A stretch of 6,649 nucleotides of DNA from Faecalibacterium prausnitzii (lineage in GTDB: Bacteria; Bacillota; Clostridia; Oscillospirales; Ruminococcaceae). This document shows positions 1 to 6,490 of the stretch, one piece after another. The notes below the pieces were generated by a model, which saw only the letters and a program-made list of their open reading frames with translations, did not search any database and had not been told where the DNA came from. A program made the translations under genes and the position numbers. The stretch is from contig DCCL01000088.1 of assembly GCA_002313795.1 (NCBI GenBank), forward strand, positions 8,921 through 15,569. Reading direction: 5' to 3'. Each line of letters begins with the position of its first letter. The stretch's first letter is position 1.

Positions 1-461
1 AAGAAGAGCAGCAGGTTCAGCAGCACAAAAATGCCCTGGGCATTGCAGATGAGTTCCAGCAGACGCCCGGTATCGTAGTGGTCGGCCAGCCACAGGCCAA
101 ACAGCACCGTGACCGCCAGACGCAGACAGGTGGTCAGCTCTCCCTTCACATCACTCGTGACAAGAAAGGTCATCACCAGCATCGCAGCCATCATCACATA
201 AAGAGGGCCGTACTTCCGTTTGAAGTCGAGCACCTTCAGATCCAGGATGTTGTCGCCGCTGGCCAGCAGCATGATGAGCAGCTCCACACCGCAGGAGCCA
301 TAATCGAACAGCGGCGTCAGAAAGCCGTATGTCTCTGCCAGGATGCCAGGAAAGCCCAGTCGGCACACGATGCAGAACGTGACCCAGAAGTCCACCACGG
401 AATCCTTCCCGCTGACGAGGTATATTTCTTTGTGTTCTTTATGCATCCGCAGTTCGTTCAT
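1..461 (-). CDS. Polytopic membrane protein, N-terminal part; probable polysaccharide polymerase (Wzy/O-antigen-ligase-like)
   Basis: This partial gene gives 153 codons from ATG 461 and then runs off the left edge. The visible part has a short charged N-terminus (about residues 1-20) and hydrophobic stretches near residues 21-45, 58-68, 84-102, 113-126 and 143-153. The loops between them are short and polar, including a basic patch around residues 76-84 (KVLDFKRKY). This pattern suits the N-terminal half of a many-helix O-antigen polymerase or ligase. The family's diagnostic loop lies further on and is not in the window, so the function is inferred from topology and from the Wzz/kinase gene upstream. 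An in-frame ATG at 479 lies 18 bases earlier. I prefer 461 because AAGAGG sits 7 bases before it, whereas 479 has no well-placed site. The gene begins 22 bases after the VanZ stop and is probably translated from the same message. An unrelated membrane protein or a flippase is possible. Confidence 0.72.
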   Translation of the reverse strand, partial: MNELRMHKEHKEIYLVSGKDSVVDFWVTFCIVCRLGFPGILAETYGFLTPLFDYGSCGVELLIMLLASGDNILDLKVLDFKRKYGPLYVMMAAMLVMTFLVTSDVKGELTTCLRLAVTVLFGLWLADHYDTGRLLELICNAQGIFVLLNLLLF

Positions 462-468
462 CTTCCGG

Positions 469-474
469 CCTCTT
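469..474 (-). promoter_or_regulatory. Ribosome binding site for the partial polymerase-like gene
   Basis: AAGAGG on the minus strand ends 7 bases before ATG 461. It favours that start over the in-frame ATG at 479, whose nearest purine-rich tract (in the end of the VanZ gene) is about 17 bases away. Confidence 0.5.
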
Positions 475-483
475 ACCATTTGG

Positions 484-1185
484 TCAATCGTCTGCGTCCT
501 CTTCTGAGAATCCCCACCGGCTCAGCAGCCAGTACACCAGATAGCCTCCCGCGCCACCCAGCACGTTGGCCACAATATCGGTCAGGTCTGCCTGACCCAG
601 GTTCAGCATCATCTGGGTGGTCTCGATCAGAATCGTCAGAAGCAGACTGAACAGCAGCGGGCAGGTGAAATCATCCAGATCTTCCGGGTCGATATGCGGG
701 AGCAGGAAGCCAAAGGGCAGAAATAGCGCCATGTTGAGAAAAATATGCTTCATGGGCTTGAGCGAGTGGGTGCGCAGCGCAGCTGCCAGCATATCCACAC
801 GGAACAGCGAGACGGTATGGTCGCCCGTGGTGCTGCGGGACAGCAGCGTGATATACATCACCGCCAGCAGATAGACCATGAACAGGGCCAGCATCCCATG
901 GTTCAGCTCCCGGAAATGCCCCACGAGGTAGAATACTGTCCCGCACACTGCCGCCAGCACCGCCAGAAGCAGCAGCGTCAGCAGCACCGGCCCGGTGCCC
1001 AGCAGGAGTGCAGCATAGACCATGATCGCTGTCAGCAGGCCGAACAGCACCAGCAAAATGACTGCCGCTGCCGGAAATGCCCGCCTCATCGTTTCCCGTC
1101 TGACCAGCATCCGGAAAACGCCCAGAAAGCTCCCGGCCAGAAGCAGCCCGATCATAATAGCCTGTAATGAAGTCTGTTTGTTCAC
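484..1185 (-). CDS. VanZ-family membrane protein
   Basis: This 233-residue integral membrane protein has the two hallmark VanZ segments. One is an Asn-led helix at residues 148-163 with the pattern N-x-x-L-F-L-P-F-G-F-L-L-P. The other is residues 187-215, with IETTQ, then a Gln-Ala-Asp-Leu-Thr-Asp loop, then a helix of the N-x-L-G-G-x-G-G type. Hydrophobic helices lie near 8-26, 39-61, 65-88, 97-115, 147-163, 175-195 and 204-221. The acidic C-terminus (SEEDADD) is probably cytoplasmic. VanZ of Tn1546 gives low-level teicoplanin resistance by an unresolved mechanism, and relatives are common in Gram-positive envelope and polysaccharide loci. Nothing here suggests a glycopeptide-resistance cluster, so an envelope role in this operon is more likely. 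The start is GTG: an in-frame TGA lies directly upstream and AAAGGAAG (1193-1200) ends 7 bases before it. The gene follows the kinase stop by 22 bases. The family assignment is firm; the function is not. Confidence 0.9.
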   Translation of the reverse strand: MNKQTSLQAIMIGLLLAGSFLGVFRMLVRRETMRRAFPAAAVILLVLFGLLTAIMVYAALLLGTGPVLLTLLLLAVLAAVCGTVFYLVGHFRELNHGMLALFMVYLLAVMYITLLSRSTTGDHTVSLFRVDMLAAALRTHSLKPMKHIFLNMALFLPFGFLLPHIDPEDLDDFTCPLLFSLLLTILIETTQMMLNLGQADLTDIVANVLGGAGGYLVYWLLSRWGFSEEDADD

Positions 1186-1207: not shown

Positions 1208-3250
1208 TTACGGCTCCTTCCCGTTGTCCCTGCCCTGCTGCAGCAGTTCATCCATCACACTCTGGGTGGAACGCTCCTCATTGCTCATGGTTTTTTCTTC
1301 CTCCATCAGCTCTGAGAGCACGTCCCGGCGGCGCTCCCCTGCCTGTTCTGCAGAAAGGTCGCCCAGCGGGTCATGCCGGGCCTGTGCCATGTGCGACGGT
1401 GTGGTACGGACTTCCGGCGCAGGAGCTTCCTGCACCGTTTTTTCCGGAACTGCCGTTTCCGTCACAGTCGGAGCGGGCGTCTTCTCGACCGTGGCTGCAA
1501 CCGGAGCAGATGCTTCTTCAACCGGAGCCACGACCGGAGAAAGCATTTCCTCGGTCGGAGCCGCAGGCGGAACCTGCTGTTTCTCTTTGGGCTGGTTCCG
1601 CTCCGCTGCCCACACTGCCCCCTTGGCGTGCTTGTCTATATATTTAGGCTTTTCGTCTTTTTTATCCTTGAGCTTCCACAGTCCGAAGCCTTTTGCCTTC
1701 GGTTTCTCCGCCACAGGCACTGCTGCTTCTGCCGGAGCCGCAGGTGCCGGTTCAGGCGGTGCAGCCTTTACCGGCTTTTTCGGTTTGGGCTGTTTCTTCT
1801 CCCTTTTCGGTTTTTCCTTCCGAGGCTGTTTCTTCGCTTTCGGCTTTGCCGGCAGATGGATATAGTCCTTCTTATCCTCGCTGGACTTCGAGCCACCATT
1901 GCCTACCCCGTTGACCACACAGCCCAGCACACGGATGCCGGACTTGTCCAGCTTTTCCAGTGCGTTCTGGATGGCAGGCAGCGGCGCGCTGTCATACCGG
2001 ATGACATACAGTACCGTATTCGCCACACGGTTCAGGCTCAGCGTCTCCGAAACTTCACCCACCGGGGCGGAGTCCATGATAATATACTCGTATCTATCGG
2101 TCAGACGCTGGATCATGTCGGTAATGACACCATCCAGTATCATGGCATTGTGTTCCAGCACCGAGGGCAGGATATCAAGGTAGCCTGTCAGCGGCGTGAT
2201 GGCATCTTCCTCGGTGGCATCACCGCGGTACAATGCGTTGAGCGAGTGGATGTAATCCACCTTGTCCATAAACAGGGTGCCAAGGCTGGGGTTGCGGGTG
2301 TCAAAGTCGATCAGCAGGGTGCGGTGTTCCATATCCGACAGCTGGATGGCCAGATTAGCCGCCACCGTAGACTTGCCCTCACCACTGGTGGTACTGGTGA
2401 CATAGAAGCAGTGGTGCTGCTCCTTGGTGCCCAGGCGGTTGCGCAGGATATACGCCGCCGCCGAGTAATTCTGGAGCACATTGGAGCGGTCCGGGCCGCT
2501 GCTGGTCAGCAGAGAGCCCTGCCGGCTGCGGAAGAACAGCTCATCCTGCGGGATGATGCCGATGGTCTCCAGGCCGAACATCGTTTCCGCATCGCGCGGG
2601 TTGGTCAGCGTCGGGCGGAGGATCAGCTCCATCAGCGCAATGCCGATGCCGCAGCAGAAGCCCAGCATCGTGAGCAGCACCGGCAGGAGCTTGCCGGTAC
2701 CTGCCACGGAGGACTGTCTCACTTCCGGCGCATCGATAACCGTCAGCTGGCCCAGCTGAAGCGCGGTCGGAATACTCTGGTTTGCTGCGTCAATGATGGC
2801 CTGCCAGATGCTCTGCGCTTCTTCCGCCGTGCGCCAGGTAAAGCGCATCTCGATGATCTGTGTAGCCTGATACTGTGTGATGCTCAGGTTTGATCTCAGC
2901 TCGTCCACCGTGGTGCCCAGCAGCCCCTGCTGCTGGATGACCTGTTCCAGCACCCGGTTGCTGCGGAGGACATAAGCCACTGCATCCACCATATCCTCAG
3001 CAAGGTGAAAATCGTTGTTGTTTGCGACCTGCGAGCCGTTGATATATACGCCATCGGAATGGTTCTGGGTGGAAATGGCAAATGAACCGCTGACCTCATA
3101 GCTCCGGATGGAGTCCTGTACATAGGTCATTGCAAAGAGCACAATGCCAAATACAAGCCCGACCAGCGTCAGCGACAGGATCATCTTCCAGCGCTTCTTC
3201 AGGACGAATACCATATCACGGACCCGGATCTGTACTCCGCCGCCTTCCAT
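1208..3250 (-). CDS. Fused Wzz chain-length regulator and BY-type tyrosine kinase with long disordered tail
   Basis: This 680-residue protein probably controls polysaccharide chain length and export at the membrane. Residues 1-45 hold a basic start and helix 1 (about 23-43). Residues 46-186 are the extracytoplasmic Wzz-like region, including a predicted coiled segment near 95-155. Helix 2 is about 187-211. The cytoplasmic ATPase/kinase domain (about 225-455) has Walker A (TSGEGKST, 288-295), Walker A' (LLIDFDTRNPSL, 312-323, with D315, D317 and R319) and Walker B (IIMDSAP, 390-396, with D393). It closes with a VLGCVVNGVG strand (441-450). In many Firmicutes the transmembrane and kinase parts are separate proteins; here they are one chain, as in proteobacterial Wzc. 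Three points are odd. The EX2RX2R oligomerisation motif is degraded (A264, Y267, R270). The C-terminal tyrosine cluster is missing. Residues 465-680 form a Lys/Pro/Ala/Glu-rich tail. ATG 3250 has a strong ribosome site. The kinase-like assignment is firm; actual autokinase activity is uncertain. Confidence 0.93.
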   Translation of the reverse strand: MEGGGVQIRVRDMVFVLKKRWKMILSLTLVGLVFGIVLFAMTYVQDSIRSYEVSGSFAISTQNHSDGVYINGSQVANNNDFHLAEDMVDAVAYVLRSNRVLEQVIQQQGLLGTTVDELRSNLSITQYQATQIIEMRFTWRTAEEAQSIWQAIIDAANQSIPTALQLGQLTVIDAPEVRQSSVAGTGKLLPVLLTMLGFCCGIGIALMELILRPTLTNPRDAETMFGLETIGIIPQDELFFRSRQGSLLTSSGPDRSNVLQNYSAAAYILRNRLGTKEQHHCFYVTSTTSGEGKSTVAANLAIQLSDMEHRTLLIDFDTRNPSLGTLFMDKVDYIHSLNALYRGDATEEDAITPLTGYLDILPSVLEHNAMILDGVITDMIQRLTDRYEYIIMDSAPVGEVSETLSLNRVANTVLYVIRYDSAPLPAIQNALEKLDKSGIRVLGCVVNGVGNGGSKSSEDKKDYIHLPAKPKAKKQPRKEKPKREKKQPKPKKPVKAAPPEPAPAAPAEAAVPVAEKPKAKGFGLWKLKDKKDEKPKYIDKHAKGAVWAAERNQPKEKQQVPPAAPTEEMLSPVVAPVEEASAPVAATVEKTPAPTVTETAVPEKTVQEAPAPEVRTTPSHMAQARHDPLGDLSAEQAGERRRDVLSELMEEEKTMSNEERSTQSVMDELLQQGRDNGKEP

Positions 3251-3278: not shown

Positions 3279-4931
3279 TTACGAGTGGGCTTTCTTTTTT
3301 CGTTTGCACAGGGCAGAAATGCCTGCAATCACAATGCCCAGCAGCACAGCCACACCGCCGCCGATCAGCAGATACCGCACTGCCTTGCTTGCGCCGACAT
3401 TCACAGTCTGCACTGCTGCCTGGTCTGCGACCTGGAAGGTATAGTGCTTGTCGCTGTTCTTTCCCATAGTCACATAATACGAGCCCGCCTTCAAATCGGT
3501 GAAGGTGATGGGGGCATTGGTGGTGGTCCAGGTACGGATCAGGTTATCCGATGCGTCATAGAGCGACAGCTCCACACCGGCACGCTGACCGCCCAGAATG
3601 TTGGACGCCGCACCGATGCTGACCCGGATGACACGGTTGGTCAGAGCCAGTTCCTTCTGCGCATCGCCGTCGATCCGGCCGTCGGACGTCACATTGAAGG
3701 TATACTCCATCGGGTCAATGGCATAATCCTCTGCCGTGCCGGTCTGGCGGATGGTGTAGGTGGTGCCCTTTTCCAGCTCTTCCAGTACGATACGGCCCGA
3801 TGCATCTGTTGTGGCGGTGGTCGTTTTTCCATTGATGTCCGTGATCTGGAAAGTCGCACCCTCGATGCCACGGGAAGAATACAGTTCATCGGCCAGCGTC
3901 AGGACGATGCGGCTGCGCTCGGATGTCAGCGTATTCAGCGGAGCCTCCACTTCCGACTTCTTCTCCACCATGCAGTCAAGCTCTTCGGTTTGTCCTGCAT
4001 AATACTGCGGGATGTCCTTCTGCCGGACGATATACTCACCCAGATAAATCTCATTGCTCTCACCGTAGCCGTTCTCATCGCAGGTGATCTCGTCCACGAT
4101 CTGGCCCTCACGGTAGCGCAGGGTGCCGTCCTGGGTCGAGATATCCGTCTTGGCGATCACGTCAAAGGTGCTGCCGGCCACTGCCATGCCGGTCTCTGCA
4201 TCGTTCATCTGGATGCGGATGATGTTCCGGGACGGGCTGAGCGGGATCTTGACCACATAAGGGTCGGGCCAGTCGTAGAGGTCGTCCAGATCAAATTCCT
4301 GATTCTCTGCGGCATCATAGCCTTCCGGCTCGGTCAGCTCATGGACGATGTACTTGCCCTGCAGCAGTTTTTCCGGGAAATAGAAGGTGCCTGCTTCCGT
4401 CGTCTCGTAGTTGCGGAACGAGACCTTTTCCGGATAATATACATTTAATATCTGCAGCGAATTGTCCGCACCATACAGCTCGAACTGCACGCCGGCCTCC
4501 TTGATGGTGCGGTCCGTCTCGGCATCGACCATGACCACGAACACGGCGGACTTGATGCCCTTATCCGGGCTTTCTCCCGTTCCGGTGCCGCTTCCGCCGC
4601 CTCCACCGCCGCCATCGTGGTCGTCCGGGCCGCCGGGCAGGTCTGCAACGGATGAGCCATCCGGGGTAGAACCCGCACCGCCGCCGGCGTTTCCATCGGC
4701 ATCCTGATGTCCGCCGTCCGGTCGCGAGATCACCGCGCCGATCCCGTCATTGCTGTTCGACACGGAACTGCCGGAGGCAGAATCCGGCTGGTCGATGTCG
4801 TCAATATTGACCAGATAGAGCGACAGCAGCAGAATGATCAGTAACAGAATCAGGACCAGCGCACTGAACATATCCGTTGCGGGCTGCCAGAAATTCAGTT
4901 CTTCGTTTGGACGTTTCCGTTTTAATTTCAT
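3279..4931 (-). CDS. MotB-like membrane stalk protein with prealbumin-like (SpaA/Cna-B) domains
   Basis: This 550-residue protein is probably the partner of the MotA-like gene it overlaps. A basic N-terminus (KLKRKR) leads into a helix at about 18-41 that begins NFWQPATDMFSAL. The F-W-x(4)-D-x(3)-A-L spacing, with D20 at the head of the helix, matches the ion-carrying helix of MotB/ZorB-type stator subunits. A Gly/Asp/Ser/Pro-rich linker follows (about 45-125, with seven Gly at 107-113). Four beta-rich repeats come next, at about 127-232, 236-330, 340-432 and 434-512. They carry typical SpaA/Cna-B elements: DAETG-type first strands, GATF-like turns, and ...G-x-Y-x-V-x-E near the end of the first. 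A second helix (about 519-541) and the tail KRKKK finish the protein. There is no LPxTG sortase signal and no OmpA/MotB peptidoglycan-binding domain. The predicted topology puts both ends inside and the repeats outside. ATG 4931 overlaps the previous stop as ATGA, and GAAGG lies 9 bases upstream. The domain calls are good; the stator role is inferred. Confidence 0.87.
   Translation of the reverse strand: MKLKRKRPNEELNFWQPATDMFSALVLILLLIILLLSLYLVNIDDIDQPDSASGSSVSNSNDGIGAVISRPDGGHQDADGNAGGGAGSTPDGSSVADLPGGPDDHDGGGGGGGSGTGTGESPDKGIKSAVFVVMVDAETDRTIKEAGVQFELYGADNSLQILNVYYPEKVSFRNYETTEAGTFYFPEKLLQGKYIVHELTEPEGYDAAENQEFDLDDLYDWPDPYVVKIPLSPSRNIIRIQMNDAETGMAVAGSTFDVIAKTDISTQDGTLRYREGQIVDEITCDENGYGESNEIYLGEYIVRQKDIPQYYAGQTEELDCMVEKKSEVEAPLNTLTSERSRIVLTLADELYSSRGIEGATFQITDINGKTTTATTDASGRIVLEELEKGTTYTIRQTGTAEDYAIDPMEYTFNVTSDGRIDGDAQKELALTNRVIRVSIGAASNILGGQRAGVELSLYDASDNLIRTWTTTNAPITFTDLKAGSYYVTMGKNSDKHYTFQVADQAAVQTVNVGASKAVRYLLIGGGVAVLLGIVIAGISALCKRKKKAHS
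4557..4799 (-). repeat. Low-complexity Gly/Asp/Ser-rich linker coding tract
   Basis: This tract encodes residues 45-125 of the MotB-like protein, a stretch dominated by Gly, Asp, Ser and Pro with no hydrophobic core. It includes a run of seven Gly codons (4593-4613). It probably forms a flexible spacer that lifts the Ig-like domains off the membrane and through the cell wall. The GGN run could vary in length by replication slippage. Confidence 0.7.
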
Positions 4932-6490
4932 CTTTCAGAGCCTTCGTTTGTCATGTTCTCAAATTCCTGAACGGTCACAGGACGCGACAGCAGGAAGCCC
5001 TGTCCCTCCGAGCAGCCTGCCTTCCGCAGAGCCGCCAGCTGTTCCATGCTCTCTACGCCCCCCGCGATGAGGTTCAGCTTCATCTTTCGTGCCTGTGCAA
5101 AGACATCGGCCACCGTACCGGCATTCTGCCGTTCCGTAAACCGGCGCAGATCCAGTTTGAATGCATCTGCGTTGATCTTATCGATATCCTTCAGAACGAT
5201 AAAGTCACCATCAAAGCCGTCCACCACTACACGGAAGCCCTCTGCCCGCAATTTTTCTTCGATGTCGTGCACTGAGTCCATCGCGTTCAGGTAGGCATTC
5301 TCCGCGATCTCAATTTCCAGATAGCGGGGCGGGATACGATATTTTTTGACCAGTTTCGAGAAGAAATCCACCACATCCATAGCCAGAATGTCCGTTTTCG
5401 TCACATTGATGGACAGCGGCACCGGACGCAGACCCGCATCGATCCAGCGGCGCAGCGTCATGCAGACCTGCTCCCAGATATACTGGTCCAGCTTGGTGAT
5501 GTAGCCGTTCTGCTCCAGCACCGGGATAAAGATGGCGGGCTGGATGATGCCCATCTTGCCATGATTCCAGCGGACGAGCGCTTCCGCGCCCACCACCTTG
5601 CGGCTGTTGATATCAAAGCGCGGCTGCAGCTGGAAGGTGAACTCACCATTCTGCAGTCCTTCCAGAATCTGCGGCATAAGGATCTTTTCGTGTTCTGCAC
5701 CACCCGTAACAGCCGCCGGGTCAGCTGCCGAAAAAGCGGGCGTCTTAGGCAGACGGTCCAGCAGCTGTGCGATCTGCCTGAACTCCCGGCGCTCCCGATA
5801 GCGAGTCTGTTCCTCAGACGACGGGATGACATTTTTGTGGAAGGAGTCCACAAACAGCCCCAGGCTCCGCATCAATGCGTTCCAGGCCGACCGGTACAGG
5901 ATATTGAAGATCAAAGACAGGATCACGCCCGCGATGGAGGTGTAGAATGCCATCTGGATACCGGACAGCAGGGTCTGCACACTGGTCAGTGCATCGTTCA
6001 CGGTACTGAAACCGATCCCGCGGATACCGATCAGCAGGCCGATAAAGGTACCCAGAATGCCAAGGCTGGTCAGCATGCCGGGCACCTGACTGACCAGAAT
6101 CTGCCAGCTGTGAAGCGAAAGCATATCTTCGTTGATGTATTCGTCGATGTCACACAGCACCTGGCCGCTCTCCTGCTGCCCCTTCACCTTGCTGCGGTAT
6201 TCATCGAAGAAGCGGTCCAGCACACGCTGTCCAAAAAATTCTTCGTATCCGAGGATTGCAGACCACGTCGAACTGGTCTGTACTTCCATAGCGCGGTCAA
6301 TGTTCTCCAAACCGCGCTCCAAGGCCTGGTCATAGCGCAGCACCGGCAGAACTCCGCCCAGAATCGCCGCCACGATGATGCCCACCATGATAAGGATGAA
6401 CATCAGCGAGAGCAGATCCGGCGAGTACACCGTAAGGACTGCACCACCAGCCAAAACCACAAGGATCAGAATATATAAACTTCTGCGCAC
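4928..6490 (-). CDS. MotA/TolQ/ExbB-like proton-channel subunit fused to a degenerate EAL domain
   Basis: This 520-residue protein has two parts. Residues 1-220 resemble MotA/TolQ/ExbB channel proteins: helices at about 4-21 and 27-51, a cytoplasmic loop (52-135), then helices at about 138-158 and 174-198. Helix 3 carries P137 and GILGTFIGL (144-152, with T148). Helix 4 carries a MAFYTSIAG motif (180-188, with T184). These fit the family's GT-x-x-G and A-x-x-T-x-x-G signatures. After a linker (about 221-268), residues 270-512 form an EAL domain, with EAL at 303-305, N362, E394, D424, K445/D447, E480 and Q497. Two catalytic positions are lost: the DDFG motif reads DGFD (G425) and AEGVE reads AGGVE (G477). 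It therefore probably binds cyclic-di-GMP or a protein partner rather than hydrolysing the nucleotide. GTG 6490 is the only plausible start after an upstream in-frame TAA, with AAGGAG 9 bases before it. The stop overlaps the next gene's start (ATGA). The EAL call is firm; the channel-like call is good. Confidence 0.9.
   Translation of the reverse strand: MRRSLYILILVVLAGGAVLTVYSPDLLSLMFILIMVGIIVAAILGGVLPVLRYDQALERGLENIDRAMEVQTSSTWSAILGYEEFFGQRVLDRFFDEYRSKVKGQQESGQVLCDIDEYINEDMLSLHSWQILVSQVPGMLTSLGILGTFIGLLIGIRGIGFSTVNDALTSVQTLLSGIQMAFYTSIAGVILSLIFNILYRSAWNALMRSLGLFVDSFHKNVIPSSEEQTRYRERREFRQIAQLLDRLPKTPAFSAADPAAVTGGAEHEKILMPQILEGLQNGEFTFQLQPRFDINSRKVVGAEALVRWNHGKMGIIQPAIFIPVLEQNGYITKLDQYIWEQVCMTLRRWIDAGLRPVPLSINVTKTDILAMDVVDFFSKLVKKYRIPPRYLEIEIAENAYLNAMDSVHDIEEKLRAEGFRVVVDGFDGDFIVLKDIDKINADAFKLDLRRFTERQNAGTVADVFAQARKMKLNLIAGGVESMEQLAALRKAGCSEGQGFLLSRPVTVQEFENMTNEGSER

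Follow-up and report, generated by a model that had tools for sequence, protein, structure and literature searches.

A ZorA/ZorB-like stator pair with a degenerate EAL domain and a SpaA-type arm, predicted to serve surface polysaccharide assembly

Two overlapping genes in a 6,649-nucleotide stretch of a Faecalibacterium prausnitzii assembly (GCA_002313795.1, contig DCCL01000088.1, forward-strand positions 8,921 to 15,569; hereafter the window, i.e. the whole stretch analyzed) encode relatives of ZorA and ZorB that carry unusual fusions: the channel half (gene 1) ends in an EAL domain and the plug half (gene 2) in an arm of SpaA-type domains. We give about even chances to the reading that the two proteins form an ion-driven motor, switched by cyclic di-GMP (c-di-GMP), that drives the polymerization or export of a surface polysaccharide; the role in surface polysaccharide is predicted because the pair sits beside sugar-polymer genes. 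A first-pass annotation, made from the sequence alone, had proposed a stator-type pair with the EAL domain inside and SpaA domains outside the cell. Its stator-type reading stood and is here refined to kinship with ZorA/ZorB, a receptor-like EAL domain, a probably doubly anchored arm and a polysaccharide setting; it did not mention the second hydrophobic segment of gene 2, the degeneracy of loop 6 in the EAL domain or the third gene that the operon constantly carries. The two genes share 4 bp (ATGA; 6490-4928 and 4931-3279):

4928..6490, minus strand: gene 1, fusion of a MotA/ZorA-like channel half with an EAL domain (open reading frame of 520 amino acids (aa), GTG start; Pfam)
3279..4931, minus strand: gene 2, opening with a ZorB-like helix, followed by a linker, SpaA-type domains and a C-terminal helix with a basic tail (open reading frame of 550 aa)

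By its sequence, the gene 1 product combines a MotA/TolQ/ExbB channel half with an EAL domain, as the first-pass annotation had it. The Pfam family MotA_ExbB (PF01618) matched residues 90-200 with 28.6 bits, over its cut-off of 22.9, and the EAL family PF00563 passed its own cut-off as well. The predicted structure (model ma7b6c4f8c812, built with 75 of the 120 listed homologues; mean predicted local distance difference test score (pLDDT) 81.2, predicted template-modelling score (pTM) 0.48) has a four-helix layout, with helices at residues 2-21, 26-69, 136-157 and 164-220. The polar threonines of the third and fourth transmembrane helices, T148 and T184, are conserved, as in the MotA/TolQ/ExbB proton channel family. 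Residue counts here and below refer, for each protein, to 122 alignment rows, i.e. the window, the locus L001 and the 120 listed homologues.

5891..6223, minus strand: MotA_ExbB domain match, residues 90-200, with the GTF and AFYTS helices (Pfam, alignment, profile A5)
6047..6049, minus strand: T148, aligned with the GTF threonine of ZorA 8vvn_C (122/122 rows)
5939..5941, minus strand: T184, aligned with the AFLTS threonine of ZorA 8vvn_C (121/122 rows)

Among solved structures, the closest relatives of this channel half are ZorA proteins. Searched as a single sequence against the PDB, gene 1 reached ZorA 8vvn_C at E 1.4e-10, and a profile of 26 MotA-half sequences (A5, for which 25 of 59 search hits were used) reached the same chain at 2.5e-21 and 8qyy/8qyk/8qyh/8qyd at 3.6e-20 to 2.8e-19. 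Over all solved ZorA chains the profile gave E-values from 2.5e-21 to 1.9e-8, as against just 0.079 for flagellar MotA. The NCBIfam equivalog of flagellar MotA scored 10.6 bits, with a cut-off of 340, at a location in the EAL part of the protein. The PADLOC model ZorA1 scored 64.7 bits on gene 1, above the general family model, and the best NCBIfam ZorA model 59.3 bits, under its cut-off of 100. In a structure search with the whole gene 1 model, EAL folds made up the best 50 of 1132 Foldseek matches and 50 VIA-align entries.

The second gene starts with a MotB/ZorB-like helix bearing D20, again as first proposed. A profile of 11 gene 2 N-termini chosen for diversity (A4) ranked three solved ZorB chains first to third in the PDB (8vvi_A, 8vvn_B and 8qyd_F; E 1.8e-5, 8.3e-5 and 5.4e-4), followed by a designed protein at 0.036. 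Counted from the printed alignment, D20 aligns with 8vvi_A D21 and 8vvn_B D24, and it is kept in 117 of the 118 rows with a letter at that position. According to the excerpted text of PMC11890865, these aspartates are critical in ZorB and packed against a ring of ZorA serines and threonines, and D24 is required for defense. As a single sequence, gene 2 matched one ZorB model weakly (E 0.0036), and a PDB search with the single full sequence did not find ZorB. A Pfam scan to E 10 returned SpaA, SdrD_B and weak others and no OmpA-like domain; the lone NCBIfam match to a 'peptidoglycan-binding protein' (E 0.13) falls on the N-terminal helix. From the first helix onward, the protein is organized as follows:

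4809..4889, minus strand: first membrane helix, residues 15-41, with the WQPATDMFSAL motif (model, profile A4)
4872..4874, minus strand: D20, aligned with ZorB D21 (8vvi_A) and D24 (8vvn_B)
4566..4805, minus strand: Gly/Asp/Ser-rich linker, residues 43-122, predicted disordered (pLDDT <50)
3396..4553, minus strand: beta domains (SpaA/CnaB-like), residues 127-512 (Pfam, model, Foldseek)
3285..3386, minus strand: second predicted helix, residues 516-549, hydrophobic at 521-539, with a basic tail (model, alignment)

The two genes stay together. We compared 11 loci (the window, nine genomes of a set of 194 that hold the full-length pair, and G664; L006 and L007 are one locus, counted once), and the order gene 1, gene 2 and a gene for a Wzz-type co-polymerase fused to a kinase-like ATPase (Wzz/kinase), all on one strand, was conserved in 11/11, with the kinase gene of L023, a short contig, cut by the contig end. 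Because the profile matches and the residue conservation hold, the stator assignment of the first-pass annotation stands on the points that were checked.

Since ZorA and ZorB are the nearest solved structures to the two halves and the channel half scores with models of ZorA, the pair could in principle belong to a Zorya-like anti-phage system in which an EAL domain has taken the place of the ZorA tail. However, a PADLOC scan that included the Zorya effectors ZorC, ZorD and ZorE returned no match among ten neighboring proteins (three of them from the short window), gene 2 lacks an OmpA-like match, the Wzz/kinase is the constant partner, and G001, one of the genomes with the pair, has a separate ZorAB-like pair in addition. 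With the effectors unmatched in the scanned neighbors and the Wzz/kinase constant, we rejected defense as the leading interpretation and regard it as highly improbable.

The EAL domain of gene 1 is expected to lie in the cytoplasm, as it is positioned after the fourth helix. Its loop 6 is degenerate:

4979..5668, minus strand: EAL domain, residues 275-504 (PF00563, 170.5 bits, cut-off 31.3)
5198..5221, minus strand: degenerate loop 6, DGFDGDFI replacing DDFG(T/S)GYS, residues 424-431 (alignment)

The second Asp of the DDFG motif has become Gly in 121/122 rows and in all 11 loci (the window and ten other genomes), and the remainder of loop 6 is replaced too, whereas DDFG(T/S)GYSS, along with the Glu at the position of E397, is intact in seven of seven other EAL proteins, of which four belong to G001 and three to relatives. 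Other signature positions persist: N362, D424, K445, Q497, Q289 and R307 in 122/122 rows, and E303, E480 and D447 in 121/122. We take Q289, R307, N362, Q497, D447 and E480 to have the presumed ligand-binding roles of their counterparts in RocR, whose numbering was fitted by spacing. E352/E355 and loop 6 were taken from PMC12943098, in the excerpted text of which the first Glu of the ExxE motif is catalytic in EAL proteins and loop 6 is essential for their activity. That catalytic-base Glu (position 477) is present in 120/122 rows; the window has Gly there instead, and L015 has Ser. E397 is kept in 108/122.

The loss of the second Asp in all 11 loci, set against its retention in the seven other EAL proteins, makes a c-di-GMP receptor likelier than an active phosphodiesterase. 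The EAL pattern thus fits a receptor better than an enzyme, with binding predicted, and a domain with this degenerate loop 6 likely holds c-di-GMP without cutting it. GGDEF proteins are present in 9/9 genomes tested; in G021 and G027 (loci L024 and L025), a GGDEF (diguanylate cyclase) gene lies directly upstream of gene 1. The opposite direction of signaling, with a working phosphodiesterase under stator control, the motor half as a sensor whose arm feels tension or polymer at the surface and so alters ion flow or ring movement, and a lowered c-di-GMP level as the output, would draw on the conserved EAL-motif Glu, Asn, first Asp and Lys, on the widespread Glu at 477 and on E397. An arm that is probably tethered at each end would suit tension sensing. 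Yet the changed loop 6, with Gly in place of the second Asp throughout the loci, concerns an element described as essential in the excerpt of PMC12943098, Glu397 is Gln or Lys in nine of the 11 loci (retained by the window and G001), and the window copy itself has lost the catalytic base (G477). The loss of loop 6 weakened active phosphodiesterase as the leading interpretation; in view of the many relatives that retain the catalytic-base Glu and E397, we keep it as a rival that we consider unlikely.

The extracytoplasmic part of gene 2 bears out the SpaA domains of the first-pass annotation, with PF17802 found in four stretches (107.6 bits). The model of this protein (m5ce087d9c0e3, built with 67 of the 120 listed homologues) has a mean pLDDT of 77.7 and a pTM of 0.58, and its best Foldseek matches were a TIE protein and pilins, at a low whole-model TM score (~0.27). 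A second hydrophobic segment is found in 118/118 rows of at least 520 aa, and two simple patterns applied to the last 90 residues revealed an LPxTG-type sortase signal in 0/122 rows. With a C-terminal hydrophobic segment, a basic tail and no such signal, the SpaA arm probably has an anchor at each end. A sortase-anchored pilus was rejected, given the lack of the motif in every row. In the first SpaA domain, K127 is kept in 118/118 rows with a letter, E198 in 107/122 and N236 in 122/122; these three might form an isopeptide triad, a guess based on CnaB chemistry.

As SpaA folds are characteristic of pilins and adhesins in Gram-positive bacteria, the pair might instead power adhesion or gliding through the arm, with the polysaccharide genes as mere neighbors or substrate providers. 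The absence of the sortase motif speaks against this, as does the second hydrophobic helix, which ends the arm and makes it unlikely to extend far from the cell; moreover, a kinase gene is the third gene at every locus. We therefore judge adhesion or gliding to be quite unlikely.

In the window, pair and kinase gene head an operon of five minus-strand genes (genes 1, 2, 3 and 4, then the start of gene 5), of which the following lie downstream of the pair:

1208..3250, minus strand: gene 3, fusion of a Wzz-type co-polymerase and a BY-kinase-like ATPase, with a long Lys/Pro/Ala-rich tail (680 aa)
484..1185, minus strand: gene 4, VanZ-like membrane protein (233 aa; PF04892, 66.8 bits)
3..479, minus strand: gene 5, first part of a protein resembling Wzy/O-antigen ligases, truncated where the window stops (blastp)

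The window reaches ~160 bases upstream of gene 1 and holds no RNA family at the gathering threshold and no tRNA. Gene 3 scored with both NCBIfam models of this co-polymerase type, which group it with chain-length proteins and polysaccharide tyrosine kinases, in each case below the cut-off (TIGR01007, 87.5 bits, cut-off 108.05; TIGR01006, 54.9 bits, cut-off 296). In Pfam, Wzz (PF02706) reached 20.5 bits (cut-off 25.5) and CbiA (PF01656) 40.7 bits (cut-off 25.4), in line with a ParA-type ATPase. The C-terminal tail is rich in Lys, Pro, Ala and Glu. Since it has just two tyrosines past residue 420 (Y463 and Y537), the gene 3 product might have another mode of signaling or be a pseudokinase.

A VanZ-like gene occurs near the pair in seven of the 11 loci, in L034 on the opposite side of the trio. 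The gene 5 fragment itself had no Pfam match; by blastp it shares 36-42% identity with a protein each at L024, L025 and L027. Those at L024 and L027 contain Wzy_C (O-antigen ligase), and a Wzy-like protein was recognized in 4/10 loci. Counting as polysaccharide-type any Wzy-like protein, glycosyltransferase, nucleotide-sugar enzyme, sugar transferase or polysaccharide deacetylase, and scanning part of the neighbors, we found such a gene besides the kinase in seven of 11 loci (the window, L020, L021, L024, L025, L026 and L027). The genomic setting hence points to polysaccharide assembly. At L021 (positions 271-960; G024), a gene for a DivIVA-domain protein adjoins the Wzz/kinase gene, a hint of localization to the pole or septum. 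Upstream of the operon at L027 (positions 1010-2867; G001) lie a prepilin-peptidase-like open reading frame, recognized by eye, and a TadZ-like protein (PF21194, 27.9 bits). The link to a Tad pilus that these genes prompted was dropped, as none was recognized in the other mapped neighborhoods.

With 120 homologues listed for each protein, the pair is no chance artefact. Among 7995 candidates scored, 1395 were homologues of protein 1 at E <= 1e-3, some perhaps via the EAL domain alone, and identity across its 120 listed homologues was 58-90%; protein 2 had 435, of which the 120 listed were 45-100% identical. Names among the listed homologues are mostly 'Clostridia bacterium' metagenome-assembled genomes (MAGs), and the MAG that holds L001 (G001) bears the label Blautia. 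The precomputed annotation of the homologues P0001-P0120 includes PF28082, a more recent Pfam family that was not reported in the Pfam scan of the window. At E <= 1e-60, protein 1 was found in 12 of the 194 genomes (G001 and relatives), nine times in full length and three times as EAL only. Protein 2, at E <= 1e-20, was found in 11/194; nine of these were the same genomes, with the gene adjoining a full-length protein 1 gene, and the other two matches were SpaA domains within frames of >2000 aa. A family-wide draw gave protein 1 at E <= 1e-90 in 2/397 genomes. In a draw across the phylum, for which the EAL-less relative P0267 served as the query, 3/398 genomes matched, namely G001 and two with ZorAB-like pairs. 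A scan of viral contigs with protein 2 revealed no relative.

A tree built from 45 MotA halves unites the EAL-fused sequences with an ultrafast bootstrap of 91 and a Shimodaira-Hasegawa-like approximate likelihood-ratio test (SH-aLRT) value of 100, slightly under the mark for firm support, and the EAL-less stand-alone relatives (250-292 aa) fall outside this group. The EAL fusion thus appears to have happened once, to an older ZorA-like stator. Inside the EAL-fused group there are also five short rows (271-293 aa), of which two extend into the beginning of the EAL domain and seem truncated; several long branches leave finer placement unsure. The apparently stand-alone channel halves without EAL (250-292 aa; P0257, P0261-P0263, P0265-P0269, P0271, P0272, P0275, P0276, P0278 and P0280) are 37-45% identical to the MotA half of the window. 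ZorAB-like pairs with long ZorA tails were seen in G001 (L032, 439-2688), G422 (L030, 1471-3550) and G314 (L031, 3-2091), with ZorB partly OmpA-like by eye; the one in G001 stands besides its EAL-fused pair.

Taken further, the motor might be a c-di-GMP-gated rotary device for polysaccharide polymerization or export across a Gram-positive membrane, in which five EAL receptors sit on a turning ring and work on the Wzz/kinase while the doubly anchored arm stays fixed, a picture we put forward tentatively and at somewhat less than even chances. In the main reading, on the pattern of ZorAB, a ring of five protein 1 copies would enclose two N-terminal helices of protein 2 and would be turned by ions that pass D20. 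The five EAL domains would hang from this ring in the cytoplasm and read c-di-GMP, thereby setting the motor on or off or docking the Wzz/kinase. Outside, the SpaA arm might replace the peptidoglycan clamp and hold protein 2 still, or else touch the growing polymer. The Wzz/kinase is the likely client, so the work of the motor would go into polymer length or export. There are precedents that make such a mechanism plausible: the Agl motor carries the spore-coat polymer round Myxococcus spores (excerpt of PMC3858216), and the degenerate GGDEF protein PelD binds c-di-GMP and controls Gram-positive Pel (excerpt of PMC7112168).

A scaffold that does not move, i.e. a stator fold stripped of ion transport that localizes the EAL domain and the Wzz/kinase, would also be compatible with a protein 2 that is probably tethered at both ends and with an ion flow that is predicted for the pair. 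Such a scaffold would have no need, however, of the near-invariant D20, T148 and T184, and we find it very unlikely.

Several observations weigh against a c-di-GMP-switched motor for polysaccharide. The system is patchy, found in 9/194 genomes, in two of 397 at the family level and, with the EAL-less query, in G001 alone of the 398 drawn from the phylum. As the Glu at position 477 and E397 are mostly retained, enzyme activity is possible in many relatives, and the GGDEF gene is adjacent in just two of the nine genomes. The kinship of gene 2 with ZorB emerges by profile and not in the single-sequence PDB search, and every NCBIfam ZorA model stays below its cut-off on gene 1. Given that the structure-search matches listed are EAL folds, the MotA half is assigned from profiles and helix layout rather than from a structure match; the pTM of the gene 1 model is only 0.48. 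Finally, at L019, L022, L023 and L034, the scanned neighbors included the kinase (and VanZ in two) and no other recognized polysaccharide gene.

If the reading as a c-di-GMP-switched motor is true, it links c-di-GMP directly to mechanical work done at the cell surface and suggests that an ion gradient can help Wzx/Wzy-type polysaccharide assembly. As far as our searches show, the rotary device would have no forerunner, either as an ion-driven motor that serves a surface polymer of Gram-positive bacteria or as a stator with its own c-di-GMP receptor. With two proteins, one Asp and one ligand, it makes a simple test case.

Parts of this arrangement have counterparts in known systems. FimX and LapD are degenerate EAL receptors for c-di-GMP that have lost catalytic parts; they share the EAL fold with gene 1, and their structures were among the fold matches of its model, but they carry other signature changes and are not known to be fused to a membrane motor. 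The co-polymerases of the Wzz/BY-kinase type (TIGR01006/TIGR01007) are the counterpart of gene 3, which scores with both models under both curated cut-offs; none of the literature matches listed names a stator pair as their partner. The AglRQS motor is not known to have an EAL fusion or a SpaA arm. Together with Nfs, AglRQS is likewise a stator-type motor that serves a surface carbohydrate polymer (excerpt of PMC3858216), albeit a Gram-negative one. Pel with PelD, as described in the excerpted PMC7112168, offers a Gram-positive polysaccharide under a degenerate c-di-GMP domain; PelD, however, is a degenerate GGDEF protein in a synthase-dependent system, whereas here an EAL domain sits on a stator beside a Wzz/kinase and, at some loci, a Wzy-like protein.

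The literature matches listed contained no description of a MotA-EAL fusion, a SpaA-bearing stator or a stator in a Wzz/kinase operon, nor of the unusual pairing of an EAL domain inside with SpaA domains outside, for which the first-pass annotation had named no described system. The stator survey PMC12505986 uses none of the terms EAL, exopolysaccharide and c-di-GMP in its main text. Stator motors of this kind are known to drive flagella, gliding, Ton uptake and type 9 secretion, and one is used in Zorya defense (PMC11890865); the excerpted part of the same paper mentions no stator with a second-messenger receptor in its ring and none serving a Gram-positive polymer.

The nearest solved sequences to both halves remain those of Zorya ZorA and ZorB (8VVN, 8VVI and 8QYD; PMC11890865, excerpt). 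The critical ZorB Asp is aligned with D20, and the aligned ZorA threonine positions are present in gene 1. In contrast, gene 1 has its EAL domain (275-504) where ZorA has a long coiled tail, gene 2 has the SpaA arm and a second hydrophobic helix where ZorB has a peptidoglycan-binding domain, and the constant partner of the pair is a Wzz/kinase. The pair appears nearest to ZorAB, yet not a Zorya system.

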